Assembly: GCF_004365875.1 (NCBI RefSeq)
Contig: NZ_SODF01000002.1
Coordinates: 1,550,001 to 1,614,000, forward strand
Source of the DNA: Kribbella kalugense
GTDB lineage: Bacteria > Actinomycetota > Actinomycetes > Propionibacteriales > Kribbellaceae
Reading direction: 5' to 3'
Length of the DNA stretch: 64,000 nucleotides
The translations under genes and the position numbers were made by a program. This document shows, in pieces, positions 4,749 to 61,901 of this stretch (positions within the stretch are counted from its first letter, which is position 1; each line of letters opens with the position of its first letter). The notes beneath the pieces are model-generated. The model was not told the origin of the DNA. It searched no databases and saw only the letters and a list, made by a program, of their open reading frames with translations.

Positions 4749-4839
4749 GGTGGCGTGTCCGAGCGGCCGAAGGAGCGCGCCTCGAAAGCGCGTGACGGGC
4801 AACCCCCGTCCGAGGGTTCAAATCCCTCCGCCACCGCCA
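4749..4839 (+). tRNA. tRNA-Ser (anticodon CGA), CCA encoded
   Basis: Type II tRNA. The acceptor arm GGTGGCG (4749-4755) pairs with CGCCACC (4829-4835), followed by discriminator G and an encoded CCA. The anticodon loop contains CTCGAAA, giving anticodon CGA. The long variable arm GACGGGCAACCCCCGTC and the T arm GAGGGTTCAAATCCCTC are intact. Confidence 0.96.
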
Positions 4840-47505: not shown

Positions 47506-48909
47506 CTAGGCCGACCGAATGGCGACATTACGGCCGCGGGGCAGCATCAGGGCCGCGGCCGTGGTGGCTATCAGCATCACAGCCGCGACACACAAGGCGA
47601 CCCGCAGACCCGCAATGAACTCACCCCGGTCCGCGACCAAGGCTCCGAAGACGGCCACGGCGAGCGCGCCGCCCGTCTGCCGGAAGGAATTCAGGATCCC
47701 GGCAGCCATTCCGGCCCGATCTGCGGCGATGTCGTTCAACAGGACGGCGGTCAGGGAAGGTACGAAGAAACCTAGGCCGAGGCCGACCGGGATGAGCATC
47801 GCCGCGATCACTGGTCTGCTGGTGCCCTCGCCGATCCAGAGCAGGCCGAACATCGCCAGCGCGAAGATCGCTTGTCCCGTGGCGATTGGCATCCGCGGCC
47901 CGAAGCGTGCCGCAGCCCTGGCCGAGGCCAGATTGGCTCCGGTGATCACGGCCATCATCGGTAGGAACATCAGCCCCGCGGCCATGGCGGACAGGTTCAG
48001 AACGTCCTGAAAGAACAGGCTCAGCGCGAAGACCAGCCCGTAGAACGCGGCATTGCCGACGAAGCCGATCGCGACCGAAACCGTCACGGTACGCGAACGG
48101 AAGAGGTCGAGCGGAACCAACGGCGCGGCGGTACGTGCCTCGATCATGATGAACGCGGTCGTCGCCACTGCGGCGAGCCCCAGGCAGCCTAGGACCACGG
48201 GCTCGCCGAAGCCGTTCTCCCCTCCGTCGATCACCGCGAAGGTGAGCGCCGCGAGCGCGACGATCGCCGTGAGCTGGCCGTACGGATCGAGTGGCGTGGC
48301 ACGGCGCGGCGAGCGCTCCGAGCGGGTCAACACCGCGAGGGTGGCGATGCCGACGGGCAGGTTGACGACGAAGATCGCCCGCCAGCTCAGAGTGCTGGAC
48401 AGCACCCCGCCGGCCACCGGGCCGGCGGCCACCGCGACGGCTCCGCCAACGGTCCACAGCGCGATGGCCCGTGCCCGTTCGGCCGCGTCCGGGAAGGCCT
48501 GCCGGACGAGGGCCAGCGAGGAGGGCAGCATGATCGCCGCCGCGCTCCCCTGGATCAGGCGGGCGGCGATGAGCTCCCCCAGCCCCGGGGCCAGCCCGCA
48601 GGCCGCCGAGGCGATCGTGAAGACCGCGACGCCGGCGCCGAACGCGCGGCTCGCCCCGATGCGGTCCGAGAGCGAGCCCGCAGAAAGCAGGAGTGCGGCG
48701 AACATCAGCGTGTAGGCGTCCACGATCCACTGCAGTCCCGCCGTACTGCCGCCGAAGGTCCGCCCGATCCCGGGCAGCGCCACGTTCATCGCCATGGTGT
48801 TGAGGTTGAGCAGAAAGATGCCCATGAACGTGGTCGCCAGGATCAGCTTCGGTGCGGCCGTGCGTTGCCGGGCATCCCGTGACGCGCGGGCTGGTTCAAC
48901 AGTGGTCAT
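47506..48909 (-). CDS. MFS transporter, DHA2/EmrB type, 14 TM
   Basis: A 467-aa exporter. FMGIFLLNLNTMAMNVALPG, LLSAGSLSDRIGASRAFGAG (motif A) and ARLIQGSAAAIMLPSSLALV (motif B/C) are DHA2 signatures, with GPVAGGVLSSTLSWRAIFVV after. ATG 48909. Divergent from the XRE/MmyB-like gene starting at 49035, which is the probable regulator. Drug or metabolite efflux; substrate unknown. Confidence 0.92.
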   Translation of the reverse strand: MTTVEPARASRDARQRTAAPKLILATTFMGIFLLNLNTMAMNVALPGIGRTFGGSTAGLQWIVDAYTLMFAALLLSAGSLSDRIGASRAFGAGVAVFTIASAACGLAPGLGELIAARLIQGSAAAIMLPSSLALVRQAFPDAAERARAIALWTVGGAVAVAAGPVAGGVLSSTLSWRAIFVVNLPVGIATLAVLTRSERSPRRATPLDPYGQLTAIVALAALTFAVIDGGENGFGEPVVLGCLGLAAVATTAFIMIEARTAAPLVPLDLFRSRTVTVSVAIGFVGNAAFYGLVFALSLFFQDVLNLSAMAAGLMFLPMMAVITGANLASARAAARFGPRMPIATGQAIFALAMFGLLWIGEGTSRPVIAAMLIPVGLGLGFFVPSLTAVLLNDIAADRAGMAAGILNSFRQTGGALAVAVFGALVADRGEFIAGLRVALCVAAVMLIATTAAALMLPRGRNVAIRSA

Positions 48910-49034
48910 CCGTCCAGACTGGTGAGGTTCGCGAGGGCGAGGCAGATCGTGATCTTCCGGGGTGCGCCATAGGTGGGTGTAACAGGGCCAGGCTCCGGGC
49001 CGGACCCCTGATCACACGCTGGCAGAATGACGAC

Positions 49035-49922
49035 ATGACCGAGTTCGGGAAGTTTCTGCGGGCTCGCCGTGGCGACGTACGCCCGGTTGACGTCGGCCTG
49101 CCCGCCGGAGCCGGCAGGCGCCGTACGCCGGGTCTGCGCCGGGAGGAGCTGGCGGCGCTCGCCGGTGTGAGCATCGACTACTACATACGTCTGGAACGCG
49201 GCAAGGAGACCCATCCGAGCCCCTCCGTGGTCGAGGCATTGGCCGACGCGCTCCGCCTCAACCAGGAGGAGAGCGGCTTCCTGCACGAGCTGGCGGCGCG
49301 GGCGGCGCGACGTGCGCCCGAGCCCCGTCCCCTGCCGTCACGGCGGGTCCGTCCGACCGTCACGCAGCTTCTGGAGACGCTCCGGCCCAACCCGGCGTAC
49401 GTAGTGAGCCGCACCAACGACCTGCTGGCGGCCAATCCCGGCGGGCTGCGACTGCTCCACGGCATCGCCGACTGGCCGGAGCGGCAGCGGAACACTGTCC
49501 GGTACACCTTCCTGCACCCAGCTGCCCGCGAGCTGTGGGCGGACTGGGAACAGAAGGCCAAGAGGTGCGTCGCCCAGCTGCGGGCGATCGCCGGCACCGA
49601 TCCGGATGCCCCGGATCTCGCCGCGCTCGTAGGTGAGCTGATCGTCAAGAGCCCCGACTTCAACCGGCTCTGGGAGCGGTACGAAGTGCACACGATCGGC
49701 GACGGCGAGAAGACGCTCCGACACCCGGAGGTCGGCACGATGACGCTCTCGCACGAAGGGCTGTCGCTGAACCGCGCACAAGGCCAGCGCCTCGTCATCT
49801 ACATGGCGCCGCCCGGCAGCCCGGACCACGACAAGATGACGCTCCTCGACCTCGCCGCCTCCGGCCCGTCCATCGGATCCGTCGAGACGACGCCCGTCCC
49901 ACCCTCTCGGAGACAGGGCTAG
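49035..49922 (+). CDS. XRE-family regulator with MmyB-like domain
   Basis: A 295-aa protein from ATG 49035; the frame continues upstream to 48852 but the HTH begins here (TEFGKFLRARRGDVRP). RRTPGLRREELAALAGVSID then YYIRLERGKETHPSPSVVEA is the HTH. The MmyB-like ligand domain starts at NPAYVVSRTNDLLAANPGGL and ends near residue 250. Probable local regulator of the divergent MFS gene. It is the last clearly chromosomal gene before the tRNA-Ser remnant at 50112. Confidence 0.92.
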   Translation: MTEFGKFLRARRGDVRPVDVGLPAGAGRRRTPGLRREELAALAGVSIDYYIRLERGKETHPSPSVVEALADALRLNQEESGFLHELAARAARRAPEPRPLPSRRVRPTVTQLLETLRPNPAYVVSRTNDLLAANPGGLRLLHGIADWPERQRNTVRYTFLHPAARELWADWEQKAKRCVAQLRAIAGTDPDAPDLAALVGELIVKSPDFNRLWERYEVHTIGDGEKTLRHPEVGTMTLSHEGLSLNRAQGQRLVIYMAPPGSPDHDKMTLLDLAASGPSIGSVETTPVPPSRRQG

Positions 49923-50408
49923 GCGCTAACGAAATCCCGATCGACAAAATGTTGTCTATCCGTGGGCGATGGCCAGTTCGGTGAACATGGCCCTCATCTC
50001 CAAACGGAGGGTCCGGCAGAGCCCGATTGTTGGACTGGCTGGAGAGAAGCCAACGAACTATCCGCAGTTCATCGCGGTGGGGCTCTTCGACGTATTGCCC
50101 GGTGAGAACAATGGTGGAGGATACGAGATTCGAACTCGTGAGGGGTTGCCCCCAACACGCTGATCACCCTGTGACGGCGTTACGAGGTTTCCCTTCGGAT
50201 GCTCGAGAAGCAAGAGCGCCGCAGCAAACTCTTCCACTCTTTCACCCGGCTCGCGTTCCCAGTTGACCGTTGTCAAAGCCATGCCTCCGAGTGGGTGACT
50301 CTGCGGTGGAGGAGACCTTCGCGCCGGGGCGGTGTCGTCAGGCGAATTGGAGGGCGGGATGTGCGCGGTTCTCAGGGCTTCACACGCACACCCCGCCAGA
50401 CTGTGAGG
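49923..50408. other. gene-free region with tRNA-Ser remnant
   Basis: 486 nt without a supported gene. It contains a palindrome GACAAAATGTTGTC (49943-49956), probably part of a promoter or operator, and the 3' half of tRNA-Ser (50112-50161). The composition is more mixed than in neighbouring genes. Confidence 0.6.
50112..50161 (-). repeat. tRNA-Ser(GGA) 3' fragment, attachment-site remnant 1
   Basis: Minus-strand sequence AGCGTGTTGGGGGCAACCCC continuing to TCACGAGTTCGAATCTCGTA and TCCTCC-(A)-CCA equals the variable arm, T arm and acceptor 3' strand of a tRNA-Ser. The anticodon loop and the 5' half are missing. 49 of 50 bases match 54671-54720. It is the left boundary (att site) of an inserted element. 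Confidence 0.85.
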
Positions 50409-50570
50409 TCAGTCCTCGTCTAGCCATTCCGCACCGTCAGCGGTGCGGTGGCAGCCCTTGTGATCTCCGAGGACGCACGGCATGCCGGACTTCGGGTGCA
50501 GACCGTCGCAGACGTCAGTTCCTGACCACTCCACCCCATCCATTTCGCGCCCCGTGTATGTGCCGTTCAT
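50409..50570 (-). CDS. small Cys/His protein, mobile-element type
   Basis: ATG 50570 gives 53 aa: NGTYTGREMDGVEWSGTDVC then DGLHPKSGMPCVLGDHKGCH, ending RTADGAEWLDED. The DGLHP-x-SG-x-PC-x-LG-x-H-x-G-x-HR motif is shared by short proteins of actinophages and AICEs, and the Cys/His spacing could bind zinc. Divergent from the XRE/TPR gene, with 100 nt between starts. Function unknown. Confidence 0.55.
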   Translation of the reverse strand: MNGTYTGREMDGVEWSGTDVCDGLHPKSGMPCVLGDHKGCHRTADGAEWLDED

Positions 50571-50670
50571 GTCCTCAGCTTGGCGACAACAGAGTGTGAG
50601 ATCACTGGTTCCCGCGTATCCCTCTGGCTCAGGATGCAGGGATACAAGGGCATGGGGGACACTGGGCAAC

Positions 50671-51831
50671 GTGACCTTCGGAGAGCGTCTGAGGGAGTAC
50701 CGGGATCACCGGGGTTGGTCTTTGGCCGACCTCAGCGGCGCCACGCACTACAGCCGGTCGTACTTGTCGAATCTGGAGAACGGTAGGAAGGTCCCGACCG
50801 AGGACCTAGCGCGGTCTTGCGACGAAGCGCTACGGGCCAAAGGGGAACTGATCTCGGCAGCTCGCGGAGACACGGTCTCCAAGCTCGATCAGACGCCGTG
50901 GCAGACAGCTGAGCTGATCCAGCGCATGCAGGTCAGCGACACAACGGCGGGAACTCTTGAGAGCCTCCATGCGACCGTCGAGGAGCTGTGTTGCCAGTAC
51001 AACCACCGAGATGCCCTTGAGCTCCGCAAGGAGGCCCACGGCTGGCTACAACACGTCGCGGGTCTCCTGCGTCGTCCCGTTGGTTTGAAGGCACACACCG
51101 ATCTGCTGGTGGCCGGTGGATGGCTTGCCCTGCTAGCCGGATGTGTCGAGTACGACCTCGGGATGCGAACGGCAGCAGAGTCCACCAGGACGGCCGCCAT
51201 CCAACTTGGGTTAGAGGCCGGCCATCCGCAGATCGTTGGCTGGGGCTACGAGATGACTGCGTGGTTCGCACTGACACAGGGGCGCTTCCGCCAAGCCGTC
51301 GACGCCGCCGAACAAGGGCAGACCGTGGCGCCGGAAACCACAGTGCACGTGCAACTCATCGCTCAGGAGGCCAAGGCCAAAGCACGCCTCGGCGACTCAG
51401 ACCTGCACACAGTGCTTGAGCGCGGCAAAGAGATTCTCGACCACTTGCCGTACCCCGACCGGCCAGACAACCACTTCAAGGTAGACCCCGCCAAGTGGGA
51501 CTACTACGCAATGGATGTCCACCGCATCGCCAAAGACGACGAGCTAGCCACCCAGTACGCCCGCGCTGTGATCAAGGACAACATCACCCCGGACGGCATC
51601 GAACTCAGCCCGATGCGAATCGCCGAGTGCCGTCTTACCCTCGGCGTCATCGCGGGCCGCGAAGGCGACCTCGAACAGGCCGTTGCGCTAGGCATCTCCG
51701 GCCTCAAAGAGGGCCGCCAAAGCAAGCCGCCCCTCCAGATGATCTCCGCAGAACTCGACCAGGAACTCCGCAAGCGCTTCCCTGGGGAGGGTCTGATCGC
51801 TGAGTTCGAAGAGGCCGTGCGCGGGGTCTGA
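50671..51831 (+). CDS. XRE-type regulator with TPR-like sensor domain
   Basis: A 386-aa protein from GTG 50671; an in-frame region to 50482 is read over the divergent small gene and is rejected. HTH at residues 1-65: TFGERLREYRDHRGWSLADL, SGATHYSRSYLSNLENGRKV. The rest is a long all-helical domain of degenerate TPR repeats (LVAGGWLALLAGCVEYDLGM, EMTAWFALTQGRFRQAVDAA, AIAGREGDLEQAVALGI-like segments). Proteins of this kind are frequent in actinobacteria and near mobile elements and respond to unknown signals. A hairpin follows the stop. Confidence 0.85.
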   Translation: MTFGERLREYRDHRGWSLADLSGATHYSRSYLSNLENGRKVPTEDLARSCDEALRAKGELISAARGDTVSKLDQTPWQTAELIQRMQVSDTTAGTLESLHATVEELCCQYNHRDALELRKEAHGWLQHVAGLLRRPVGLKAHTDLLVAGGWLALLAGCVEYDLGMRTAAESTRTAAIQLGLEAGHPQIVGWGYEMTAWFALTQGRFRQAVDAAEQGQTVAPETTVHVQLIAQEAKAKARLGDSDLHTVLERGKEILDHLPYPDRPDNHFKVDPAKWDYYAMDVHRIAKDDELATQYARAVIKDNITPDGIELSPMRIAECRLTLGVIAGREGDLEQAVALGISGLKEGRQSKPPLQMISAELDQELRKRFPGEGLIAEFEEAVRGV

Positions 51832-51834
51832 GGA

Positions 51835-51867
51835 TGATCAGTACGGCGGAGTTCGTCGTACTGATCA
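51835..51867 (+). terminator. hairpin terminator after XRE/TPR gene
   Basis: TGATCAGTACG (51835-51845) and CGTACTGATCA (51857-51867) form an 11-bp perfect stem, loop GCGGAGTTCGT. It lies between convergent genes. The following ATCACAATTGAC also occurs at 13219-13230. Confidence 0.65.
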
Positions 51868-51904
51868 CAATTGACCGCAGGTCGTGCTTCGGCCGTGTCG
51901 GGCC

Positions 51905-52534
51905 TCAGCCGACGAACGCGATTGCGTTGCCGTCCGGGTCGCGCACGATGAAGTCGGTGCCGCCCCACGCTTGTTTGGTCAGCTTCTGCACGATGTCGGC
52001 GTCAGCGGCCAGATATTCCGTGTAAAGCTCGCGTGCGTTCGGCGTCTCGATGAACGCCATGATGAGCCCTTCTCGTTCCGCGGCACCGGCCGCGAACACC
52101 GGCTCGTGGACGAGCTTCAGGTGCAAGGTCGCGCCGTCGCGCGACACCGACCCGTAGAACGGCGGGTTGCCGTGCAGGAAGTCGATCCGGAAGCCGAGCT
52201 GGTCCCGATAGAACGTGGCCGAGGCATCGACGTCGGCGACGTACAGCACAGGTTTGGCGCTCGCGACTGCCGTGTCCTGAGCCTCCGGCTGCTCGCTGGT
52301 GGGCGGGGCCGCTTCCGTGCTCGCCTTGAGTTCGGCCCAGCTGGCGCAGCCCGCTTCGAGGGCGATGATCTCTTGGGCTTCGGTGAGGGGAAACTTCAGC
52401 GCGAGCGCTTCGCGGTCGGACAACGTGCGATAGCGCGCGAGCTGTCGGATGCGACCGCCGATCGAGAAGTTCCCATCGCGGTGCCAGCGAACGAGCAGTT
52501 TCGCCTGCTTCTTGTACGTTTCGAGCTTGGGCAT
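51905..52534 (-). CDS. VOC-family (glyoxalase/bleomycin-resistance) protein with extra N-terminal helical domain
   Basis: A 209-aa protein from ATG 52534. Residues 1-75 are helical (ETYKKQAKLLVRWHRDGNFS, LARYRTLSDREALALKFPLT), a small ankyrin-like or UBA-like head seen in front of some VOC proteins. Residues 92-209 are a VOC domain: AKPVLYVADVDASATFYRDQ, LGFRIDFLHGNPPFYGSVSR, GTDFIVRDPDGNAIAFVG. Metal ligands look incomplete. Could bind a drug or be a lyase. The degraded tRNA-Ser copy lies upstream of its start. Confidence 0.82.
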   Translation of the reverse strand: MPKLETYKKQAKLLVRWHRDGNFSIGGRIRQLARYRTLSDREALALKFPLTEAQEIIALEAGCASWAELKASTEAAPPTSEQPEAQDTAVASAKPVLYVADVDASATFYRDQLGFRIDFLHGNPPFYGSVSRDGATLHLKLVHEPVFAAGAAEREGLIMAFIETPNARELYTEYLAADADIVQKLTKQAWGGTDFIVRDPDGNAIAFVG

Positions 52535-52677
52535 GGCGCTCCCTCTTCGGTCGTGAAGTAGGTGGGCCTTGCCCTTTCGGCTGCTGTGCCGCTGCGCCCT
52601 ACGACCGGGTTGAACCCGCGCCTGCGGCTTCGAGATTACCACGGCGAAACGGCCCGGTCGCTGCTGCGAACGGGCCT

Positions 52678-52715
52678 CGAAGTCGTGAGGGGTTTGCCTC
52701 CAACACATCTTCCAA
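52678..52715 (-). repeat. degraded tRNA-Ser 3' fragment, attachment-site remnant 3
   Basis: CGAAGTCGTGAGGGGTTTGC then CTCCAACACATCTTCCAA aligns with CGAACTCGTGAGGGGTTGCC/CCCAACACGCTTTCCAA of 54671-54727: five mismatches and one indel in 38 nt. It includes TTCCAA of the anticodon loop, absent from the 50112 copy. The likely origin is an older att site. Confidence 0.5.
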
Positions 52716-52731
52716 CTGCTCACGTGGTGGG

Positions 52732-54348
52732 TCAGTGCCGGCCGTGGCCGCCGTCACTGCGACGGCGTTGCAGTGTGAACTTTTCGAAAACCGACAGCTC
52801 GCCGGTGGGCGTGATGATGTTGTAGTAGGTGACGTAGATGCGGGTCATGTCACCGGGGTGACGGCCCGGGTCGACGCTGAACTCGGCGAAGCCGTACGGA
52901 TGCTCCGCGTCGCGGACGCCGATCCAGATCGCCGTCTCCTGCTCTTTGACCGAGTTGAACTTACCGACGTGCTTCATCTGGACCTGTGCCGAGTGATGTC
53001 CATGACCGTCGGCGTCGTCGGTGGTGAAGCTGTTGTTGGTGATGCCGGACACGCCGCCACCGCCGAGGACCATGTGCGTCGTGCCGTGCGCGCTGTCGAT
53101 CACGTCGAGTGCGGTCTGACTCGGGTTGGGTGTGAGAGTGACGCTGCCGGGGACGACGCCACGCACCGCCAACGAGCGCTCGTAGTCGTGCTCGTGGCCA
53201 CAGACCACCAGGTCGACGCCGTACTTGTCGAACAGCGGTCCGTACGCCGCGCGCAGTGCGACGTCGGCGCCGTTCGCGGCAGTCGCAGAGCTGATCATCA
53301 CCTGGTGCATGCAGACCACGATCCAGTCGATGTCCTTCGAAGCCCGTGCCGACTTGAGCTCCCGCTCCAGCCAGGCGAGCTGCCGACCGCCGGAGTAGCC
53401 GTTGATGTAGATATCGCCGCCCTCCTGCAGGGCGATGTCGTCGTTCTGCAGGGATATCACCTTCACCGAGCCGACTGTGAAGGAGTACCAGAGATTGTCG
53501 AGCTCGGGCTGGTTCTCGGTCGAGGGCAGCTCGAAGTAGGTCTGGTACGCGTCGAGACCGAGCTTGCCGTTGCCCGACTCGATCTCATGGTTGCCCGCGC
53601 ACGGCATCCACGGACGGAATCGCGCCGAGCGGCTGTTATTGGCGAGGAAGTCGTGCCAGACGCGGATGCGGTCGGGGCCGGTGTTGGCGTAGCACAGGTC
53701 ACCGTTGAGGAGGTGGAACAGCGGGCCGACCTTCTCGATGCCGGTGACGATGTCGGCAGAGGCGGGCGTGGCGTTGGGCTCGAAGTCCCGGCCCGAGGCG
53801 TCGGCCGGGTTCGCTGCAGTCTTCCACGTCACACTGGGCGCACCCTGGTCGCCGAAACTGGTGAAGGTGAACGGAGCTCTGCCGGACGGCGCCGTGTGGA
53901 AGGTGCCGGCGTCGGGGGTGGCGCCGTCGTGCTGGGCCGCGTACAGGTAGTCGGTATCGGCCCTGAGCTTGTTGATCAGCGCGTGGTGGACCCAGACGGT
54001 CCGCCCAGAGGCGCCGTCCACGTAGGTCTTCGTCGTCGCGTGCACTGTGGAGCCGAAGCCGCCACTCAGCGTGCCGTAGACGACGCGCGGCTTCTTGACG
54101 GCCGCGTCGGTGACCCACGAGACGACCATCTGGCTGCGCGGGTCGGCGCCGAAGGTCAGGTGCAGGCCCTGGACGGGGGTGGTGGCCGAGCCGGTGGCGA
54201 GACCGGTGACCTCCGACTTCGCCGGGACCGCCTCGGCGGTTCCGGCGCCGAGGATCAGTGGCCCGGCGGCGGCGCCGGACACTGACGCGCCGAAGACGCC
54301 GAGCGCGTTGCGACGAGAGATTCGAGTTTGCTTGGGTGCTTCGGACAT
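52732..54348 (-). CDS. Tat-exported purple-acid-phosphatase-type metallophosphoesterase
   Basis: A 538-aa protein from ATG 54348. The Tat signal is TRISRRNALGVFGASVSGAA. An N-terminal fibronectin-like domain (HLTFGADPRSQMVVSWVTDA, VWVHHALINKLRADTDYLYA) precedes the metallophosphoesterase domain: GDQG (FTSFGDQGAP), LLNGDLCYANTG, CAGNHE, VCMHQVM, CGHEHDYERS. These supply the two-metal ligands of purple acid phosphatases. Cleaves phosphate esters outside the cell. Lies inside the presumed older insertion; its family is not typical AICE cargo. Confidence 0.92.
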   Translation of the reverse strand: MSEAPKQTRISRRNALGVFGASVSGAAAGPLILGAGTAEAVPAKSEVTGLATGSATTPVQGLHLTFGADPRSQMVVSWVTDAAVKKPRVVYGTLSGGFGSTVHATTKTYVDGASGRTVWVHHALINKLRADTDYLYAAQHDGATPDAGTFHTAPSGRAPFTFTSFGDQGAPSVTWKTAANPADASGRDFEPNATPASADIVTGIEKVGPLFHLLNGDLCYANTGPDRIRVWHDFLANNSRSARFRPWMPCAGNHEIESGNGKLGLDAYQTYFELPSTENQPELDNLWYSFTVGSVKVISLQNDDIALQEGGDIYINGYSGGRQLAWLERELKSARASKDIDWIVVCMHQVMISSATAANGADVALRAAYGPLFDKYGVDLVVCGHEHDYERSLAVRGVVPGSVTLTPNPSQTALDVIDSAHGTTHMVLGGGGVSGITNNSFTTDDADGHGHHSAQVQMKHVGKFNSVKEQETAIWIGVRDAEHPYGFAEFSVDPGRHPGDMTRIYVTYYNIITPTGELSVFEKFTLQRRRSDGGHGRH

Positions 54349-54561
54349 TCCGGGGCCTTTCGCGTCGTCGGGCGCAGTCGAACACCAACCGGACAGCAGC
54401 GGTTCGAACCTGACCGCGGTTTGCACAGGCCAGTGATGCGCACACTGACGGACGCTAGGAAGCACAGACGACCGGCGCAGCGGGACGCGTATGAACGTCA
54501 GATGGCAGTCAGCGCAACGGACGTCAACGCCCGAAGCCTGAGCAACTGAGACGGAACGGGT

Positions 54562-54596
54562 CCGGGGCGGCTCCCTGTAGAAGGGAGCCGCCCCGG
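54562..54596. terminator. strong hairpin left of tRNA-Ser remnant 2
   Basis: CCGGGGCGGCTCCCT (54562-54576) and AGGGAGCCGCCCCGG (54582-54596) give a perfect 15-bp stem with 5-nt loop GTAGA. The 515-nt region 54349-54863 has no gene: only this hairpin, the PAP promoter and the att fragment. It may stop transcription entering from the element on the right. Confidence 0.75.
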
Positions 54597-54670
54597 CTCT
54601 TGTTCCGACTCCTAGACCTGGAATCACGTCCTGAGCTGCGGAAACGTGACTCTGTGAACCTCTAGGAAAG

Positions 54671-54727
54671 TGGCGGAGGATACGAGATTCGAACTCGTGA
54701 GGGGTTGCCCCCAACACGCTTTCCAAG
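54671..54727 (-). repeat. tRNA-Ser(GGA) 3' fragment, attachment-site remnant 2 (left att site of the AICE)
   Basis: The minus strand reads CTTGGAAAGCGTGTTGGGGG, CAACCCCTCACGAGTTCGAA, TCTCGTATCCTCCGCCA: half of the anticodon loop with GGA, the variable arm, T arm, acceptor strand and CCA. The 5' half of a tRNA-Ser does not precede it. The intact copy should be reformed at the right end of the element, beyond the window. Confidence 0.88.
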
Positions 54728-54863
54728 ACCGCAATTCGACGTTCAGCCGGGTTCGGGAGTCCTTCGGGAGCGTGGATCCGGCGAGCCGCGATCGTCGGCG
54801 AACGGCCCCGAACGGCGGCGGATGAGACCCACTTTGAGACCCGGACAGATGCTGTGCATGTCC

Positions 54864-55454
54864 TCAGCAGTCTTCCGGGGCAGGGGAAACGTCCCTGCAT
54901 GTCACGTTGTCGAAAGCAGCGATGGCTACGTCAAACGCCGCAGCGTCTACAGGAGCAAGGATCGGGTCCCCGGAGGGGCCGACGAGTGTCGCCGGGACGG
55001 TGCGCATCACGGCCCGCATCGCATCGCGGGCAGCGGGTGTGCCGAAGACGTGGATGTTGTTAATGGCTACCTGTGTCCTATATCGGGCGTGTTGAAGCTC
55101 TCCGGCCGTAGTACCGCAGGTTGGCTTCTTCGCCTCTGCACAGGCGAGTCGTTCGGCCTCAGCGGTGAGGTATTCGTTGGCAGCGTCCCGGAACTCTTGG
55201 TAGACAGGCTGTCGCTTCTCCCTCACACGTTGATCCCGGTCGAAGGCCAACTGTCGCTCTTGCGAAGCCCGGCCTGCTTGGAGACTTTGATAGCTGACCA
55301 CCGTCGCAGAACCTGCACCGATCAAGGTGCCTGCGAGCCCGAAAATCCCGGCCAACCAGGCGTCGGTTAGTCGAGAGCCCTGGCGTGCCGGCCGCCTTCT
55401 CTGGGTTCGGCGCTCCGCGAATCGGGACTTGATGGACATCCGTGCAGGGGACAT
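54864..55454 (-). CDS. hypothetical single-pass membrane protein
   Basis: A 196-aa protein. A basic N-terminus (SIKSRFAERRTQRRRPARQG) is followed by one hydrophobic helix (AWLAGIFGLAGTLIGAGSAT), then a charged, probably coiled segment (GRASQERQLAFDRDQRVREK) and CAEAKKPTCGTTAG with a possible Cys pair, then a helical end. No family recognised. Proteins with this plan (short helix then coiled coil) are common cargo of AICEs and integrated phages. First gene inside the element. Confidence 0.6.
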   Translation of the reverse strand: MSPARMSIKSRFAERRTQRRRPARQGSRLTDAWLAGIFGLAGTLIGAGSATVVSYQSLQAGRASQERQLAFDRDQRVREKRQPVYQEFRDAANEYLTAEAERLACAEAKKPTCGTTAGELQHARYRTQVAINNIHVFGTPAARDAMRAVMRTVPATLVGPSGDPILAPVDAAAFDVAIAAFDNVTCRDVSPAPEDC

Positions 55455-55601
55455 GCGAGGACCTTAGGCCCCGGGGTATTGCCGGGACAGTTGTTACACC
55501 GGCTGACCGGGCGAATTCTTACCCTTCACGTCCGGTCGCGAGGGTGGCCGGACCCCGGACAGATAGGACGCGCCGCACCAGACGGATCTAGATTTGGGTT
55601 C

Positions 55602-56309
55602 GTGAGCGTTGACTGGACAAGAGACGAGATCATCCTCGCCTGCGATCTCGTGATGGCCAACGGCTGGAAGGAGCTGCGAGCCTCGCGGCCGGAAGTCGTC
55701 GAGCTGTCACAGCTGCTCGTCCGCGCTCCGCTGCACCCGACCGCTGTTCGCGATGACAAGTTCCGCAACCCCAACGGTGTCGGGCGCAAGACTTCTGACA
55801 TCGCAACCCAGCATCCGGACTACCGCGGCCGGCCAACGCGCGGGAACCGGCTAGACCGAACGGTGCTGGACGAGTTCCGCACCGAACCAGAGCGCATGAG
55901 ACGCGTCGCCGCCGAAATCCGCGCCGCGATCGAACGAGGTGATGTTGAGACATTGCCGACGAGCGAGATCGTGGCCGAAGACGTGGAGGCGCAGGAAGGC
56001 CGAATCCTGTTTGCACGGCATCTCCGTCGCGAACGGAGTCCTGAGCTCAGGCGACGGAAGCTCGCTCAGGTGCAAGCCGAGGGCTTGGCAGTCGCATGCG
56101 AGGTCTGCGGTTTTGATTTCGCCGTGGCGTATGGCGAGCGCGGGCGGGGATACATAGAGGTGCACCATGTGTTGCCACTGCATGTGTCCGGCACGATCAA
56201 AACGCGCCTTCAAGACCTCGCGCTGCTGTGCGCAAACTGTCACCGGATGGCCCACCGGGGCGTGTGGATTACCCCGTCAGCGCTCCGCGAACTGCTGGCG
56301 ACCAGCTGA
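55602..56309 (+). CDS. HNH endonuclease (McrA-like)
   Basis: A 235-aa protein from GTG 55602 (SVDWTRDEIILACDLVMANG); the longer frame to 55479 lacks a start signal. An N-terminal domain (residues 1-140: LVRAPLHPTAVRDDKFRNPN then GVGRKTSDIATQHPDYRGRP) resembles the DNA-binding or modified-base recognising head of McrA/ScoMcrA-type enzymes. The C-terminal HNH fold reads ACEVCGFDF, GYIEVHHVLPLHV and LLCANCHRMAHR, with zinc Cys pairs and catalytic His. Probably a modification-dependent nuclease carried as defence cargo. Confidence 0.85.
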   Translation: MSVDWTRDEIILACDLVMANGWKELRASRPEVVELSQLLVRAPLHPTAVRDDKFRNPNGVGRKTSDIATQHPDYRGRPTRGNRLDRTVLDEFRTEPERMRRVAAEIRAAIERGDVETLPTSEIVAEDVEAQEGRILFARHLRRERSPELRRRKLAQVQAEGLAVACEVCGFDFAVAYGERGRGYIEVHHVLPLHVSGTIKTRLQDLALLCANCHRMAHRGVWITPSALRELLATS

Positions 56310-56481
56310 ACCCCACGTCGGCGGGGACAGGGCGATAGTCCAGTGCCGGCGGATTATGCACTATGTGGTCGCCGCTTTGGCCACATGCTGGGCATGTCTG
56401 GTAACGGATCAGTAACGATTTATGCCGCTGAGCGGGCTTTGCCGACGCAGCATTCGTCGCCTAAGCGTGACAGCTTTTGGC

Positions 56482-56494
56482 CTAGCCCAGCTAG
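56482..56494. promoter_or_regulatory. candidate extra KorSA-type operator
   Basis: CTAGCCCAGCTAG agrees with CTAGCCTGCCTAG, the consensus of the sites at 59738-59845, at 10 of 13 positions. It lies in the 288-nt gap in front of the 56598 gene. The link to the repressor is inference. Confidence 0.3.
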
Positions 56495-56597
56495 TGACTA
56501 AGCGTCGTCGCCTCGCGTACCGTCTGCCAATGCATGACGAACGGTAATCAGGCGGCTCGCATCTCGTGGCGGAGTGTGAGCCGAGGGGGGCGTAACC

Positions 56598-56990
56598 ATG
56601 AAGACGCTAGGCACGTTATGCAGTTGCCCCGAAGGGCCGCTGGAGTGCACACCTGACGAGGAGATCCTCACCCACTGGGGGCGCAGGGGAGACTTTAGGC
56701 AAGAGCCAAGGGTGGACAGAGAGATTGAGATGTCACTTCTGGCGGGGGAACTGTCGGTCAAAGAGGCCACCGACTACGTCAATCCAATGAGTAGGCGCAA
56801 CGCGGCTGTCCGTTACACGACGGCTGGTGCGCTCAGAGCGGCGGGGTTCGCAGTTGTCCATACACTGGGTAGGGTGCGCAGTCAGAAGCACGTTTCAATC
56901 GTTTGGCCGCCTGATGACCCGCTCAACGAGGCCAAAGTGCCCTGGCCGCCAGCCGTGGTCGCCAGGTTCAATGAATGCTTCAATGACTAG
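56598..56990 (+). CDS. hypothetical protein (AICE cargo)
   Basis: A 130-aa protein from ATG 56598. KTLGTLCSCPEGPLECTPDE, then a helical middle (VDREIEMSLLAGELSVKEAT) and a mixed end (AAGFAVVHTLGRVRSQKHVS). The C-terminal half could be an alpha/beta unit resembling the MbtH-like or RNA-binding small folds, but nothing specific. It shares its strand with the following gene (16 nt gap), so they probably form a pair. Confidence 0.55.
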   Translation: MKTLGTLCSCPEGPLECTPDEEILTHWGRRGDFRQEPRVDREIEMSLLAGELSVKEATDYVNPMSRRNAAVRYTTAGALRAAGFAVVHTLGRVRSQKHVSIVWPPDDPLNEAKVPWPPAVVARFNECFND

Positions 56991-57006
56991 GGGAGGATGT
57001 GACGAG

Positions 57007-57495
57007 ATGAACGCTGACAACCTAGTCAAGCGCGGATGCAAGCCGTGGTTGCCCTCAGCTGAGGCGACCGATCTAGACGTGTGGCACATGTATGAGATTC
57101 CGACCGTAGGCACCTTTAGGACCCGGGGTGGGGATCTGGTGCTCTTCGCGGTCGTGGGCGATCTGGACCCAGAGCGTGAGGTCACTGTCTGGGCTTACAC
57201 GAAGATCGATGAGGCCATGGTCGACGGACTCGAGTTCGATACCACCGCTGAGCTTCATGAATGGGCCCGGCAGCGGTTTGCTGGGGTCCACGTCGTCTAC
57301 GCGTTGGCACTCGACCTTGCGGTTGAGCGTTGGTCGCCGGTTGAGAACCCCGGGGACCTGCACAGTGGGGCTGTCGAGTTCATGGATCAGGTCCGCCGAT
57401 CGATCGAGCCAGCGACGCACGATCCAGCAGTCGATTTCGAGGTCAAGCAGGCTGAGGTCACCGCACTTGTTGACCTTGTGCCGATGTCTTCCTGA
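57007..57495 (+). CDS. hypothetical protein (AICE cargo)
   Basis: A 162-aa acidic protein from ATG 57007. GCKPWLPSAEATDLDVWHMY then VGTFRTRGGDLVLFAVVGDL, EVTVWAYTKIDEAMVDGLEF and HVVYALALDLAVERWSPVEN. Alternating strands and helices without known motifs. In-frame upstream sequence lies inside the preceding gene. A strong hairpin ends the unit at 57508. Partner of the 56598 gene. Confidence 0.6.
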   Translation: MNADNLVKRGCKPWLPSAEATDLDVWHMYEIPTVGTFRTRGGDLVLFAVVGDLDPEREVTVWAYTKIDEAMVDGLEFDTTAELHEWARQRFAGVHVVYALALDLAVERWSPVENPGDLHSGAVEFMDQVRRSIEPATHDPAVDFEVKQAEVTALVDLVPMSS

Positions 57496-57507
57496 GAGAG
57501 ACGCACC

Positions 57508-57541
57508 GATGCCCCGGTTCCCGCGAGGGAACCGGGGCATC
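57508..57541 (+). terminator. hairpin terminator of the 56598-57495 unit
   Basis: GATGCCCCGGTTCCC / GGGAACCGGGGCATC form a 15-bp perfect stem with tetraloop GCGA, 12 nt past the stop. Confidence 0.85.
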
Positions 57542-57720
57542 GAGCATTGAGGGTGGGGACTAGTACCTTCGCCGCGTCTGTGGATAACCCAGCTCGCGCC
57601 GGCATGAGTTCCGCCATGCTGATCAGGCGACCTCGGGCAAGGTCACGGGCCAGGACCCGTCACGCGCCGATTGCACTGGCTACGGGGACCCCAGCCCGCA
57701 GACCACCCGTAGCCGCGCGG

Positions 57721-58143
57721 CTAGCTGCCCCATGACTGGACGGCCGGCCGTTTCGAGAAGGCCTGGACCTCGTCTTCTGAGAGACGTCTCATCTTTGAGG
57801 AATGCGCCCATCGACCGGGTTCCAGGGGATGCCGCTCAAGATAGGTGATGTACCCATGCCAGCCGTCGTCTTCGCGAGCCCACATATGCAGGAGGGCAAC
57901 CTCCGTCATGCTCGGTGAGACCGTCAGTTCGACATGGACAGGAACGTCACGCCAGCGAGCAGCCTGGTCGGGACGCTCGCCAGGTCCCTCGTATCGCAGG
58001 CTGAGGACAGCCGCGTGTATGCCCGCGTCAGGACCAGTCAAGCCGCGAGCGACCCATTCCCTCCTGTCCTCGTCCCAGACACCGTAATGGAACGGGGCGC
58101 TCCCCTTCGGAGCGTCCGGGTCCCAGCGCTGGGCATAACGCAA
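57721..58143 (-). CDS. hypothetical protein (AICE cargo)
   Basis: A 140-aa protein from ATG 58143. RYAQRWDPDAPKGSAPFHYG, VWDEDRREWVARGLTGPDAG, then HVELTVSPSMTEVALLHMWA and WHGYITYLERHPLEPGRWAH. Trp-rich beta pattern, no family recognised. Third gene of the minus-strand group starting with the GntR repressor, separated from the HAD gene by 46 nt. Confidence 0.55.
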   Translation of the reverse strand: MRYAQRWDPDAPKGSAPFHYGVWDEDRREWVARGLTGPDAGIHAAVLSLRYEGPGERPDQAARWRDVPVHVELTVSPSMTEVALLHMWAREDDGWHGYITYLERHPLEPGRWAHSSKMRRLSEDEVQAFSKRPAVQSWGS

Positions 58144-58189
58144 TCTGCCTCCTCATTCCAGGGTCAGTAGAGACCTCCGAAGCTGCCCA

Positions 58190-58867
58190 TCAACCGATTG
58201 CGGCGACCAGCTCCGTCATGCTCTGCACAACGGCGTCGGCACCGGCAATCGAGAGGGCATCCGCCTTGCCGGGCTTGTTTGCGTAGCCGATGGTGAGCGT
58301 TCCGGCTGCCCGGCCTGCTTCCATGTCGCTGGTTTGGTCACCAATGAAAACGCAGGCGGAAGTACGGATCCCCAGTGCCTTCGCAGCGTTCTCAATTAAG
58401 TGCGGGTTGGGCTTCATCAGGGTTGGGTCTGAGGGATCGCGACCCTCGACGTGCGCGACTCGGTCGACGAGGCTGGCGCGGGCGAGGTAGCGCACGACCG
58501 CTTCGGCATAGTTGTTGCTCACGATCGCAACCAACTTCCCGCTGCTCTGGCACGCTGCTAGCGAGTCGGCTGCGCCTGGAGTCGGGAGCGCCGTGTCCAC
58601 CGCTCGCAGTTCTGCGTCTTGCAGAGCCCTCTCGAGCTCGGCCGCCAACTGTGGCTCATCGGCGGCTGCAAGCAGCAAGTCGTGAGGGCTGGTCGCCTTC
58701 GTCAGAGCGTCATCAAGGTCGTGACGAACCGTTCCGGCCAGCTCGCGCAGTTCGCTGATGATTTGCTGGGGAGGGTACCCGTGGAATACCGAGCAGATCG
58801 GTCCGTCGAAATCGAAGAGGACTGCCTCTGCGGCGGCGAATATTTGCCGAAGTGGATCAACTGTCAC
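58190..58867 (-). CDS. HAD-superfamily phosphatase
   Basis: A 225-aa protein from GTG 58867, which overlaps the GntR stop by 4 nt; the extension to 58912 is rejected. Motif I VLFDFDGPICSVFHG (nucleophile Asp), motif II IVSNNYAEA, motif III PTLMKPNPHLIENA (Lys), motif IV CVFIGDQTSDMEAG. A phosphoglycolate-phosphatase-like cap sits between motifs I and II. Substrate unknown. Translational coupling with the repressor suggests element-level control. Confidence 0.88.
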   Translation of the reverse strand: MTVDPLRQIFAAAEAVLFDFDGPICSVFHGYPPQQIISELRELAGTVRHDLDDALTKATSPHDLLLAAADEPQLAAELERALQDAELRAVDTALPTPGAADSLAACQSSGKLVAIVSNNYAEAVVRYLARASLVDRVAHVEGRDPSDPTLMKPNPHLIENAAKALGIRTSACVFIGDQTSDMEAGRAAGTLTIGYANKPGKADALSIAGADAVVQSMTELVAAIG

Positions 58868-59718
58868 AGTTCGCGGACCTGCCCCAATGTGCCCCAGAGA
58901 CTGTCGAACCATCGCCGCGCCTGATCAACGTACTGCGAACCCGTTGCCTGGTCGTTGTCGCTGAGTGAGTGATGGAAAAGAACCGTGTCTTTACCTACGG
59001 CATCGAATATCGGGACGGTTTCTCCATCGATCTCCACCTCGCGCTCCCTGACCGGATAGAACCCGAAGAAAATCTCTTCATCATTCAACGCGTAGAGCTT
59101 GAACATCATCGGGAGGCCAGCGACTACTCGCGCCTCAACTTCAGTCTTTGATACGAGTCCCAACTCCCCGAGTTCGCGGATGGAGTGGGTGATCTCGCCC
59201 GCCGATCGGTGGGCGATTCCTGCCACCCTTGCCCGGACGCTCGGGTCGTCACCTGGCGTGCCGCCGGCACGCGACGGCACGGCGATTGGCTGATTGAGAT
59301 CCGGCAGAAGCATGCGGATATGGATCGACTGAGGAGTCAAGCGACCGCGCCTGATGCGATCAATCGGCTCCTCAAGCGCCCCCAGGAGTGTTTCACCGGT
59401 GAGGCCCGCGAAGTCGATATGCACGGAGTCGCGTTCGAATGCCTTTTCAATGTGTGGACGCAAGCCGACTGCCTGGTCGGCCTGCTCGCGCACATATACG
59501 CCGCTTCCGACACGAGAGACGATCAAGCCCTCATCGCGCAAGATCCTTAGCGCCTGCTGAATTGTCATCCTAGCAACGCCGTACTGCGTTGCTAGCTCGT
59601 TCTGAGACGGAAGTTTCTCCCCCGCCTTCACCTTGTGCGTGAGGATCGCCGCGCGCAGAGCGTTGGCGACCTGCTTGAACGGCGGTCGCGGGTCAGACGG
59701 ATCTAGCTGCTGCTCCAT
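58864..59718 (-). CDS. GntR-family repressor of AICE transfer (KorSA-like)
   Basis: A 284-aa protein from ATG 59718. The N-terminal winged helix reads PPFKQVANALRAAILTHKVK, GEKLPSQNELATQYGVARMT, QQALRILRDEGLIVSRVGSG (residues 12-77). The C-terminal domain has no clear UTRA match. Central repressors of AICEs (KorSA of pSAM2) are of this type. The divergent region 59719-59914 carries four copies of a CTAGCC/GGCTAG motif. Position and operators support repression of the tra operon and its own gene. Confidence 0.87.
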   Translation of the reverse strand: MEQQLDPSDPRPPFKQVANALRAAILTHKVKAGEKLPSQNELATQYGVARMTIQQALRILRDEGLIVSRVGSGVYVREQADQAVGLRPHIEKAFERDSVHIDFAGLTGETLLGALEEPIDRIRRGRLTPQSIHIRMLLPDLNQPIAVPSRAGGTPGDDPSVRARVAGIAHRSAGEITHSIRELGELGLVSKTEVEARVVAGLPMMFKLYALNDEEIFFGFYPVREREVEIDGETVPIFDAVGKDTVLFHHSLSDNDQATGSQYVDQARRWFDSLWGTLGQVREL

Positions 59719-59737
59719 GCCCAGAAGCTTACTAGCT

Positions 59738-59845
59738 GACTAGGCAGGCTAGGGCAGTTCTGTCCAGATACTTGACCTGACTAGCCAGCCTATGTAGCTT
59801 GCTGTCTACGAAATCTGGCTAGGCAGGCTAGTCCGACTAGCCAGG
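59738..59845. promoter_or_regulatory. divergent promoter with four CTAGCC/GGCTAG operators
   Basis: Site A is GACTAGGCAGGCTAG (59738-59752); site B GACTAGCCAGCCTATG (59779-59794); site C GGCTAGGCAGGCTAG (59817-59831); site D GACTAGCCAGG (59834-59844). C and D together form GGCTAGTCCGACTAGCC. TTGACC (59772-59777), 17-nt spacer, TAGCTT (59795-59800) looks like a sigma-70-type promoter toward the tra genes, with site B in the spacer. Likely targets of the GntR repressor. Confidence 0.72.
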
Positions 59846-59914
59846 TGGCGTCTCGGCGTTGGTACCCGCCGAGACGCCTGGGTCGTACTAGTCGTCTGAA
59901 GAGGAGCACAACCC

Positions 59915-60295
59915 ATGAGCATCATCCATCTCGCGGCTGTCGGTGGCGAGGACCCGATCGCTGCCGAACTGGCCGCCATCGAGTGCGAGTGGCCGCTGAT
60001 CGCGGCCGAGCTTGACGTGTTGGACGCCGAGATCGCGTTGATCAATTCCGCTCCGAATGCGTCGGAACTGGACCGGCGGCGAGTGCGGCGCGCGGAGCAC
60101 CGTGTACTGACCGTCAAGCGCAAGTTGGCTTACCTCGACGGTGCGCCAGCGCTGCCATGCGGGTGCGCCGAGAGCGTAGTCACGAGCTTCCTTCGCGGCG
60201 GCGGGGAACAGTGCTCGTCATGCGGATCGACCTGGGATCGTCACGACCGCATCATCGCGTTTCGCGGCATCACTAGCGCGGACGGTGCCGCATGA
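59915..60295 (+). CDS. AICE small protein resembling DUF6284, with zinc-ribbon-like tail
   Basis: A 126-aa protein from ATG 59915. ELAAIECEWPLIAAELDVLD, then AEIALINSAPNASELDRRRV and RRAEHRVLTVKRKL, is a charged helical hairpin like DUF6284 proteins of Streptomyces AICEs. The tail ALPCGCAESVV...GGEQCSSCGSTWDRH has CGC and CSSC, a possible zinc site and longer than usual. First gene of the tra operon; overlaps the next by 4 nt. Confidence 0.7.
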   Translation: MSIIHLAAVGGEDPIAAELAAIECEWPLIAAELDVLDAEIALINSAPNASELDRRRVRRAEHRVLTVKRKLAYLDGAPALPCGCAESVVTSFLRGGGEQCSSCGSTWDRHDRIIAFRGITSADGAA

Positions 60296-60549
60296 ACCGC
60301 CGCACAGCGCAGAGTCTGGAGCAGACCTGGGCGGATCGGCTCGGGATTGACAGCCCCGACGCCGTGGGACACGAGCTGGCCGCGCGCTTCGAGCACCTGT
60401 CGCGGTTCGTACTGACCGATGAGATGCCCCCGCGCGGGGAGCTGGTGTCGGCTGAGGCCGCGACGGCGTACGGCGAGCTATGGGTGTTGGCCGGGTTCCT
60501 GGCCGACGCCAAAGAGGCCATGACGGGCGAGGAGGACGACGGCCGATGA
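60292..60549 (+). CDS. small AICE protein
   Basis: An 85-aa helical protein (NRRTAQSLEQTWADRLGIDS, HELAARFEHLSRFVLTDEMP, ATAYGELWVLAGFLADAKEA). Overlaps both neighbours by 4 nt (ATGA). Not recognised. The layout shows it is translated in the tra operon. Confidence 0.65.
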   Translation: MNRRTAQSLEQTWADRLGIDSPDAVGHELAARFEHLSRFVLTDEMPPRGELVSAEAATAYGELWVLAGFLADAKEAMTGEEDDGR

Positions 60550-60917
60550 ACCTCGACCGCATGGACGCGATGATCAAGTCCGCTGATGACGCCTATGGGG
60601 CGATCCGGAGCCTGAACGACGCCACGATCACGGCCACTGTCCCGGCACCAGTCGCGTACGCGTTGCTGGGATCGCTGAGCCAGCTTCAGGACGCGGTTGC
60701 TCAGTTCGCGGGTCAGATCGCGACTGGGCTTGATCGGTCGCTGTTGGACTTCGATGTGTACGACGACGCCCGTGACCCGGCTGAGAGCGTCGCGATGGCG
60801 GCCGCCGCGCTGGAGGAGGCGAAGACGTACGCCGCTGTCGTTGCTGAGCGGGTGAGTACGGCGCAGTCCGCGATCGCCTGGCAGGGTTTCCAACTGGACA
60901 AGGAGGGCGACCGGTGA
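60546..60917 (+). CDS. small helical AICE protein
   Basis: A 123-aa protein from ATG 60546. NLDRMDAMIKSADDAYGAIR, ALLGSLSQLQDAVAQFAGQI, AMAAAALEEAKTYAAVVAER. Almost entirely amphipathic helices, probably dimeric. Overlaps the preceding and following genes by 4 nt each. Confidence 0.68.
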   Translation: MNLDRMDAMIKSADDAYGAIRSLNDATITATVPAPVAYALLGSLSQLQDAVAQFAGQIATGLDRSLLDFDVYDDARDPAESVAMAAAALEEAKTYAAVVAERVSTAQSAIAWQGFQLDKEGDR

Positions 60918-61882
60918 GCACTCCCGTCCAGGTCCCGGAGAATGCGCCGGCAACGGCCAAGCCGAACAGCGTCGACCGGCTGCGGACGGCGGCGGCCGAG
61001 GCGTCGCAGGTCCGGGCGCTGTCCACTCACCCGGACGTGGTCGCGCTGCGTGTGGAGTCGGTGCGGACGCAGGTTGACCGGTGCATGTGGGTCGGGATCG
61101 TGCTCGGTCTGGCGTTCACGATGGTCAACGTTCAGGCGTTCGCCGCCCAAGGCGCTGCGCTGTGGTCGCTGCCGTGGTTCGCGGCTTGGCTGCTAGACCC
61201 GATGGTGTCGCTTGTGCTGATCGCGGTGCTGCGCGCTGAGCAGATCACCGCGCGGTATCAGGTGAGCGACCACACCAAGTGGATCGGCCGCACGAAGCGG
61301 TTCGCGTTCGCTGCGACGTACGCGATGAACACCTGGTCGTCGTTCCTGCACGGCGACGTGGCTGGGATCGTGTTGCACTCGGTTCCGCCGCTGCTGGTGT
61401 TCTGCGCTGCTGAGACCGCTCCGGTATTGCGGGACCGGCTCACCGAGGCCGTGCTACGGGCAGAGCAGGCCGCCGCGCTGGCCGACCCGGAGGGGGCATC
61501 TCACCGGCTCGACACCGCCCCGGCCGTCACCGAGCTGCCCACCACTGCCGAGACACCGCAGACGGCCTCTGAGGCGATCGAGACCGTACCGGCCGCCCCG
61601 AGTAGGCCGAAGCCGTCACACACGCGCAGGAAGTCTGCCAAGCCGGGGCGCAAGCTGCTGGCCGACTACGTGACCGAAGCCCTAGCAGCCGTCGAGCCGG
61701 GTACGGCGGCCGATGCCATCACCCCGGCGTGGGCGCGATACACGACCGGTTGCTCAACCGGCCTGTCCGCCAAGGTCGCCGCGGCCGTCCGCGACGCGCT
61801 GAACACCATCCCCGAAACGACCTCCCAAACGAGCACTTACGACACGGACGCACCGGGCGAGACCGCCCGCGTCGCGGCCTGA
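60914..61882 (+). CDS. SpdB-like membrane protein (DUF2637 type), AICE spread protein
   Basis: A 322-aa protein from GTG 60914. A helical N-terminus is followed by about four membrane helices (MWVGIVLGLAFTMVNVQAFA, WFAAWLLDPMVSLVLIAVLR, AFAATYAMNTWSSFLHGDVA, VLHSVPPLLVFCAAETAPVL). The cytosolic C-terminal part of about 130 residues (SRPKPSHTRRKSAKPGRKLL, LADYVTEALAAVEP) looks like a DNA-binding or helix-turn-helix segment. Such proteins support plasmid or AICE spreading within mycelium together with the TraB translocase, which follows 19 nt later. Confidence 0.78.
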   Translation: MSTPVQVPENAPATAKPNSVDRLRTAAAEASQVRALSTHPDVVALRVESVRTQVDRCMWVGIVLGLAFTMVNVQAFAAQGAALWSLPWFAAWLLDPMVSLVLIAVLRAEQITARYQVSDHTKWIGRTKRFAFAATYAMNTWSSFLHGDVAGIVLHSVPPLLVFCAAETAPVLRDRLTEAVLRAEQAAALADPEGASHRLDTAPAVTELPTTAETPQTASEAIETVPAAPSRPKPSHTRRKSAKPGRKLLADYVTEALAAVEPGTAADAITPAWARYTTGCSTGLSAKVAAAVRDALNTIPETTSQTSTYDTDAPGETARVAA

Positions 61883-61901
61883 CCGATAGGAGCGAGACGG
61901 C

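Follow-up and report, generated by a model that had tools for sequence, protein, structure and literature searches.

How did three incomplete copies of one tRNA gene come to lie in a row, all on the minus strand, in the genome of Kribbella kalugense? We analyzed a 64,000-nt stretch of this 8.3-Mb genome (C2:1550001–1614000, hereafter the window; the genome is labeled G000 in comparisons). A preliminary description had placed 3′ fragments of a tRNA-Ser(GGA) gene at 50112–50161 and 54671–54727 (49/50 identical), with a degraded copy at 52678–52715 and no 5′ half on any of them. A core search and BLAST recovered the first two at these coordinates and in this orientation. The leftmost fragment matches the intact gene at 49 of 50 positions (tRNA positions 39–88, 98% by BLAST) and the rightmost at 57 of 57 (positions 32–88, 100%); they share an exact 42-nt inner core (50119–50160 and 54678–54719), with 0 matches in 100 shuffles. 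The degraded copy is real, and Smith–Waterman alignment stretches it to 52670–52715 (score 53, vs. just 16 for tRNA-Ser(CGA) at the same place), with a BLAST part at 52677–52715 that corresponds to tRNA positions 33–70 at 85% over the best 39 bp. The 5′ half is indeed absent from all three.

We used 52 distinct tRNA sequences, predicted by ARAGORN in the fetched stretches of this genome, as BLAST queries against the window and a 23-kb extension (E up to 1e-3). Only three partial tRNA copies were found there, each of tRNA-Ser(GGA), together with two full tRNAs, Ser(CGA) at 4749 and Ser(GGA) at 71489. ARAGORN found no intact tRNA-Ser(GGA) within the window. Rfam at its gathering threshold gave no match on the window and missed the tRNA-Ser(CGA) at 4749 as well, so it is little informative for tRNAs.

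An intact tRNA-Ser(GGA) and a tyrosine integrase had been predicted to the right, along with an attR copy to be looked for, and all three are present. The tRNA lies on the minus strand 7.5 kb beyond the window end (C2:1621489–1621576, or 71489–71576 on the window scale), with its 3′ end facing left, and holds the attR copy within it. The integrase (431 aa, C2:1617973–1619268; Pfam Phage_integrase and Phage_int_SAM_3) lies beside the tRNA; it reads toward the tRNA 3′ end, stops 2.2 kb short of it, and has an HTH_17 excisionase-like protein (Pfam) directly upstream. The rightmost fragment and the tRNA are 16,818 bp apart and carry identical 57-bp cores, as expected of attL and attR for integration at a tRNA 3′ end, and the corresponding site is empty in a different species (G026). 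Among the genes scanned, the order from left to right is HNH, HAD-like hydrolase, GntR regulator, TraB-like translocase, Prim-Pol, DUF3631, HTH_17 excisionase-like protein, and integrase. Prim-Pol (130 bits) and DUF3631 (227 bits), both above cut-off, provide a replication module. The TraB-like FtsK/HerA translocase (plus strand, 61902–64000 in the window, gene end 64172) has sub-cut-off profile scores (Pfam FtsK_SpoIIIE 21.2 bits vs. a cut-off of 24; NCBIfam TraB 30 bits vs. 800) and a weak FtsK match to solved structures (E 0.0017). By its gene content and ends we classify 54671–71488 (16.8 kb; right limit C2:1621488) as an AICE (actinomycete integrative and conjugative element) whose TraB-like gene is divergent; the portion within the window is 54671–64000, and the remainder extends to 71488.

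Parts of this resident AICE recur in relatives. The HAD-like hydrolase (58190–58912, minus strand; Pfam Hydrolase) is present in the G009 and G025 elements and partly in G012, and the GntR-family regulator (58864–59718, minus strand; Pfam GntR) is 92%–93% identical in G009 and G025. Directly right of attL, an attP-arm-like sequence (54728–54842) matches conserved sequence at the left ends of related elements and clusters with them against a shuffled control. With the core left out, identity is 85% to G025 (115 bp) and G029 (106 bp), and 70%–73% to G009, G027, G031, and G037 (111–120 bp). When the 2 kb surrounding the tRNA was searched against plasmids, four records matched, with a query coverage of 3% apiece. 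We also noted that the HNH protein (55479–56309) weakly matches a model for type IV restriction enzymes, and that the stretch after the integrase stop (69275–69373) is repeated just before the tRNA (71373–71471, window scale; 89% over 100 bp), the two repeats flanking an M78 (IrrE-like) peptidase as cargo. The layout in G009 is similar: an M48-like peptidase lies between repeats that are 75% identical along 97 bp.

We surveyed the locus in 38 genomes of the genus Kribbella (the family-level sample consists of the same 38), using at least 18 kb left of the tRNA in each except G004 (3.8 kb) and G008 (10.9 kb). A full tRNA-Ser(GGA) was found in 38/38 genomes and partial copies in 19; 23 of 28 partial copies end at position 56–57 of the 88-nt query. 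Left of the tRNA there are 25 fragments in 18 of the 38 genomes, all in the same orientation; across the 38 loci (score of at least 40), no fragment was found on the opposite strand or in reversed controls. Two or more fragments occur at the locus in six of the 38 (three in this genome; two each in G007, G013, G017, G027, and G029), and in the two-fragment stacks of G007 and G013 the older block holds an integrase or an integrase remnant. Fourteen genomes have an integrase homolog at the locus, an incomplete one in the case of G012, G013, and G023; each of the 14 has a fragment (that of G008 on another contig), compared with five of the 24 others (G001, G018, G027, G029, and G031; Fisher P = 2.4e-6, a nominal value, the species being related). 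Integrase relatives at 70%–71% also occur away from the locus in G003 and G017. Conserved attP-like arms follow 20 of the 25 fragments. Further 3′ fragments of tRNA-Ser(GGA) lie on other contigs (G001:C536:35632–35685 and G027:C43:8332–8381), and the 1.7-kb integrase-less block between fragment and tRNA in G001 (L010:1804–3317) encodes an AbiEi/AbiEii pair.

A right-arm motif, TGACC(T/A)G..GG, was picked after viewing the sequences, so its counts are descriptive and carry no test. It occurs in 27/38 tRNA-left flanks, comprising all 14 integrase-bearing loci when these are counted separately, 16/18 loci with fragments, and 11/20 without (including G008); it occurs in 12/25 fragment-left flanks and in 0/3 of those in this genome. 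Public genomes yielded 23 loci with integrase relatives, six of them Kribbella loci already counted. Their tRNAs are Ser(GGA) in seven, Ser(TGA) in five, Thr in five, Phe plus Asp in one, and Ala plus Ile in one (a short weak match), with none in four. All 19 loci with a tRNA have it downstream of the integrase on the opposite strand. Two of the tRNA-Ser(GGA) integrase loci lie outside Kribbella (Phytohabitans and Actinoplanes).

The proposed comparison with relatives lacking the element was borne out by empty sites in related species (G034, G032, and G026). The tRNA of G034 and G032 is immediately preceded by the end of an ECF-sigma gene. That gene recurs in G026 (Sigma70_r2, r4_2, DUF6596), where a purple acid phosphatase (PAP) gene comes next; the PAP upstream region stops 64 bp short of an intact tRNA, and no fragment was detected between this PAP cassette and the tRNA. 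G012 has PAP, then a 57-nt fragment, then a 4-kb element with half an integrase, and then the tRNA. No fragment was detected on the far side of PAP, between it and the ECF gene, in either G012 or G026. These layouts suggest that the site between ECF gene and tRNA took in PAP, and the site between PAP and tRNA the AICE-type elements. In the window, the PAP cassette (52728–54534, minus strand) comprises a coding sequence at 52732–54348 (Pfam Pur_ac_phosph_N and Metallophos) and its upstream region. The decayed tRNA fragment ends 12 bp ahead of the start of PAP homology (52728), the position at which PAP, had it inserted at the tRNA, should have left a fragment. A search of this genome for a 274-nt piece of the ECF gene yielded no close copy, the best of the 40 candidates scored (out of 244 at first look) reaching 74%. 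Pairwise identity of the PAP DNA among G000, G012, and G026 is 94.3%–95.4% throughout; in the same three pairs the left flanks reach 82%–89% and the right flanks 86%–90%. Differences from this genome at third codon positions in G012 and G026 are 9%–10% in PAP vs. 19%–35% in three flanking core genes. PAP lies beside a tRNA fragment in G012 and beside the tRNA in G026. Both PAP junctions are closely common to G012 and G026, and neither is common to this genome.

The stretch from 50.1 to 54.7 kb had been described as an older insertion, dated by its position. That it contains older inserted DNA agrees with our data; that it is one insertion does not, as the decayed fragment splits it into two blocks, 50112–52677 (XRE and VOC genes) and 52670–54670 (PAP), with a further right-end remnant at about 54544–54670. 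The dating, with the leftmost fragment oldest, is likewise unsupported: 50112 is 98% intact vs. about 85% for 52670–52715, so that decay is greater nearer the tRNA and position gives no age. The first block has the leftmost fragment as its left edge and holds an XRE/TPR regulator of the NsdA family (50482–51831, plus strand; Pfam HTH_31, NCBIfam NsdA_fam_reg above cut-off), whose true start is probably nearer 50650, since several homologs align only from residue 51–60 on. XRE homologs occur at the tRNA-Ser(GGA) locus in six relatives (G007, G010, G013, G017, G028, and G037) and away from it in others. In G010 a homolog lies ∼320 bp right of the fragment; in G013 a truncated homolog adjoins the older fragment, and the two share a 2.3-kb stretch with an integrase. 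The block also holds a VOC cassette (51880–52650, minus strand), consisting of a glyoxalase-like coding sequence (51905–52534) and ∼115 bp upstream.

Two short segments recall the right ends of elements. A hairpin at 52650–52677 (no strand) resembles AICE right ends just before the tRNA, with a best score of 46 against the stretch left of the G017 tRNA and similarity also to G010, G023, G031, and G019; of the 59 element or tRNA ends compared, 14 attain the 99% level set by random stretches and 45 fall short. At 54544–54670 (no strand), immediately before the third fragment, lie a terminator hairpin (−55 kcal/mol) and an arm. When ends of elements or tRNAs were compared with this segment without the core, 23 of 62 attained the 99% level set by random stretches, the best being G035, G023, G007, G014, G015, and G022. 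Because terminator and arm resemble AICE right ends, a further element was probably deleted here, its body now gone. No attP arm was recognized right of 50161 or 52715, where arm similarity never exceeded the shuffled maximum; three of the other 23 fragments are likewise armless (G001, G027 at −3583, and G029 at −3303). Among the ORFs scanned, the XRE, VOC, and PAP genes contain no integrase, replication, or transfer domains, and an ORF at 50270–50599 has no Pfam match. Both blocks share with cis-mobilizable elements (CIMEs) the att-like repeats, here fragments on both sides, and the lack of integrase, replication, and transfer genes; the recombination-competent att sites with arms that also characterize CIMEs were found in neither. 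Left of the first fragment, 47506–49922 encodes an MFS transporter and an MmyB-like regulator without a close match in the relatives' fetched tRNA loci (just 30%–37% for the MFS protein); close relatives of the MmyB-like regulator occur elsewhere in G023 and G029.

From what was directly observed, namely the fragments, the intact tRNA, the integrase, the conserved element ends, the empty sites of related species, and the genus-wide association, we infer the integration chemistry and the order of events; continuing excision is putative. The locus is very probably an accretion site, at which AICEs repeatedly inserted into one tRNA-Ser(GGA) gene and left remnants to the left of the resident AICE. 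Repeated integrase-mediated insertion at a tRNA-Ser to the right, as first proposed, is supported by the intact tRNA, the integrase, attR, and the relatives' empty sites. AICEs with a tyrosine integrase would insert into the 3′ half of tRNA-Ser(GGA); at every insertion the gene would be rebuilt from the element's own 3′-half copy, and the old 3′ half displaced to the element's far (left) side, so that fragments would accumulate left of the intact gene in one orientation. The resident 16.8-kb AICE (54671–71488) would be the latest complete insertion. The blocks 50112–52677 and 52670–54670 would be leftovers of earlier insertions after deletion and recombination. They keep terminal fragments and right-end hairpins along with a cargo of one or two genes; nothing in them was recognized as an integrase, replication, or transfer gene. 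The decay of 52670–52715, nearer the tRNA and more decayed than 50112, is the opposite of what a simple stack predicts. Insertion of an element into the decayed fragment itself would explain this age order; we rejected it by reasoning that a crossover near the anticodon end leaves the fresh copy on the right, not on the left.

Duplication can yield short tRNA pieces, and the fragments could in principle be tRNA pseudogenes or duplications unrelated to integration. This is hardly credible given the single orientation of 25/25 fragments, the shared end point at position 56–57 in 23/28 partial copies, the tie between fragments and integrase presence, and the conserved arms after 20/25 fragments; the G026 empty site also speaks against it for the fragment at 54671. 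A more serious contender, doubtful but worth keeping in mind, is that only the resident AICE was integrase-borne, and that the older blocks arrived by homologous exchange between flanking core genes and the tRNA, their fragments having been made in other strains. The excess similarity of PAP over its flanks (94.3%–95.4% vs. 82%–90%) and over core genes at third positions, the junctions that G012 and G026 share without this genome, and a decay order out of step with position would all fit such exchange. However, the hairpins and arms like AICE right ends just before the fragments at 52670 and 54671 are expected if elements once ended there, and the two-fragment stacks of G007 and G013, with an integrase or a remnant of one in the older block, also favor insertion.

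We think it unlikely that the older blocks are working cis-mobilizable elements, such that the resident integrase excises the DNA from 50112 to the tRNA, or from 54671 to the tRNA, as a unit. The cores at 50112, 54671, and the tRNA are 98%–100% identical over 50–57 bp, and the literature describes cis-mobilization of Streptomyces TR1/TR2 (PMC8369830) and proposes it for AICEs in tandem (PMC9513070). Against it stands the finding that no attP arm follows 50161 or 52715.

Accretion of the ICESt1 type was reportedly described by Pavlovic in 2004. In a Streptomyces rhizosphere population, successive and defective AICEs are reported at one tRNA-Arg gene with direct repeats between them, the leftmost remnant lacking traB and different integrases using the same site (PMC9513070). 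That case and ours share repeated insertion at a single tRNA gene and decayed remnants; here the genus is Kribbella, the gene is tRNA-Ser(GGA), the remnants hold one or two recognized genes each, and the comparison is across species. The Kribbella locus is a well-supported further case, in another genus, of this process already published for Streptomyces (PMC9513070). Tandem AICEs are also reported in Frankia (tRNA-Lys) and S. avermitilis (tRNA-Arg), which likewise show the att-tra-rep-int-att layout, a tyrosine integrase acting at the 3′ end of a tRNA, and tandem insertion; both tandem elements there count as AICEs, whereas here one unit alone keeps integrase, replication, and transfer genes (PMC3218068). 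The TR1-type CIMEs of Streptomyces likewise consist of integrase-less DNA between att-like repeats adjoining a conjugative element, but at our locus attP arms were not found on the older fragments and mobilization is putative (PMC8369830). Among papers on Kribbella and integrative and conjugative elements, judged by titles and the starts of abstracts, we found none on the subject. The insertion hotspot is common across the genus, its tRNA tails and element ends record past insertions, and a concrete integrase and attachment site are now available for Kribbella.

The comparisons also revealed two unremarkable-looking window genes, VOC and PAP, as horizontally exchanged: judging by DNA identity, both appear to move within the genus in short cassettes. 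Relatives of the VOC gene occur in 25/38 genomes, and 18 genomes, this one included, have a DNA copy at 89% or more, mostly one close copy each. In an order-wide sample the cassette was matched in 25/293 genomes, 24 of them Kribbella. In 10 fetched relative loci, homology to the window is limited to 750–782 bp at 91%–95% DNA identity with sharp edges (∼770 bp), and third-position differences from this genome within the cassette are 6%–19%. The 10 neighborhoods were compared with that of G034 only. Several shared pieces were found in G003, G012, and G035, one of 1.9 kb and one weaker in G024, two of ∼0.5 kb in G033, and nothing >300 bp beyond the cassette in G016, G023, G025, and G032, so that several VOC loci are nonsyntenic with that of G034. 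An intact tRNA-Arg(ACG) lies within ∼3.5 kb of the cassette in G034, G003, G012, and G035, and 3′ fragments of this tRNA adjoin it in G033 and G035; the tRNA or its fragments are thus present at five of 10 loci. A 25-bp tRNA-Gly match stands at the cassette edge in G025, and no tRNA or fragment was found within 5 kb of the cassette in G016, G023, G024, and G032. We see a rather slim chance that the integrase-less blocks, besides being debris, are carriers of such single-gene cassettes, with VOC (∼770 bp) and PAP (∼1.8 kb) circulating in Kribbella, docking at tRNA 3′ ends, that of tRNA-Ser in this genome, and moved by passing AICE integrases. The VOC upstream region gave one chance-level match in Rfam (E 4.3) and no match beyond 11 bp among the tRNAs compared. 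Finally, we noted that these ∼115 bp (52534–52650 and homologs) are strongly conserved and contain a palindrome that resembles a tRNA T-arm.
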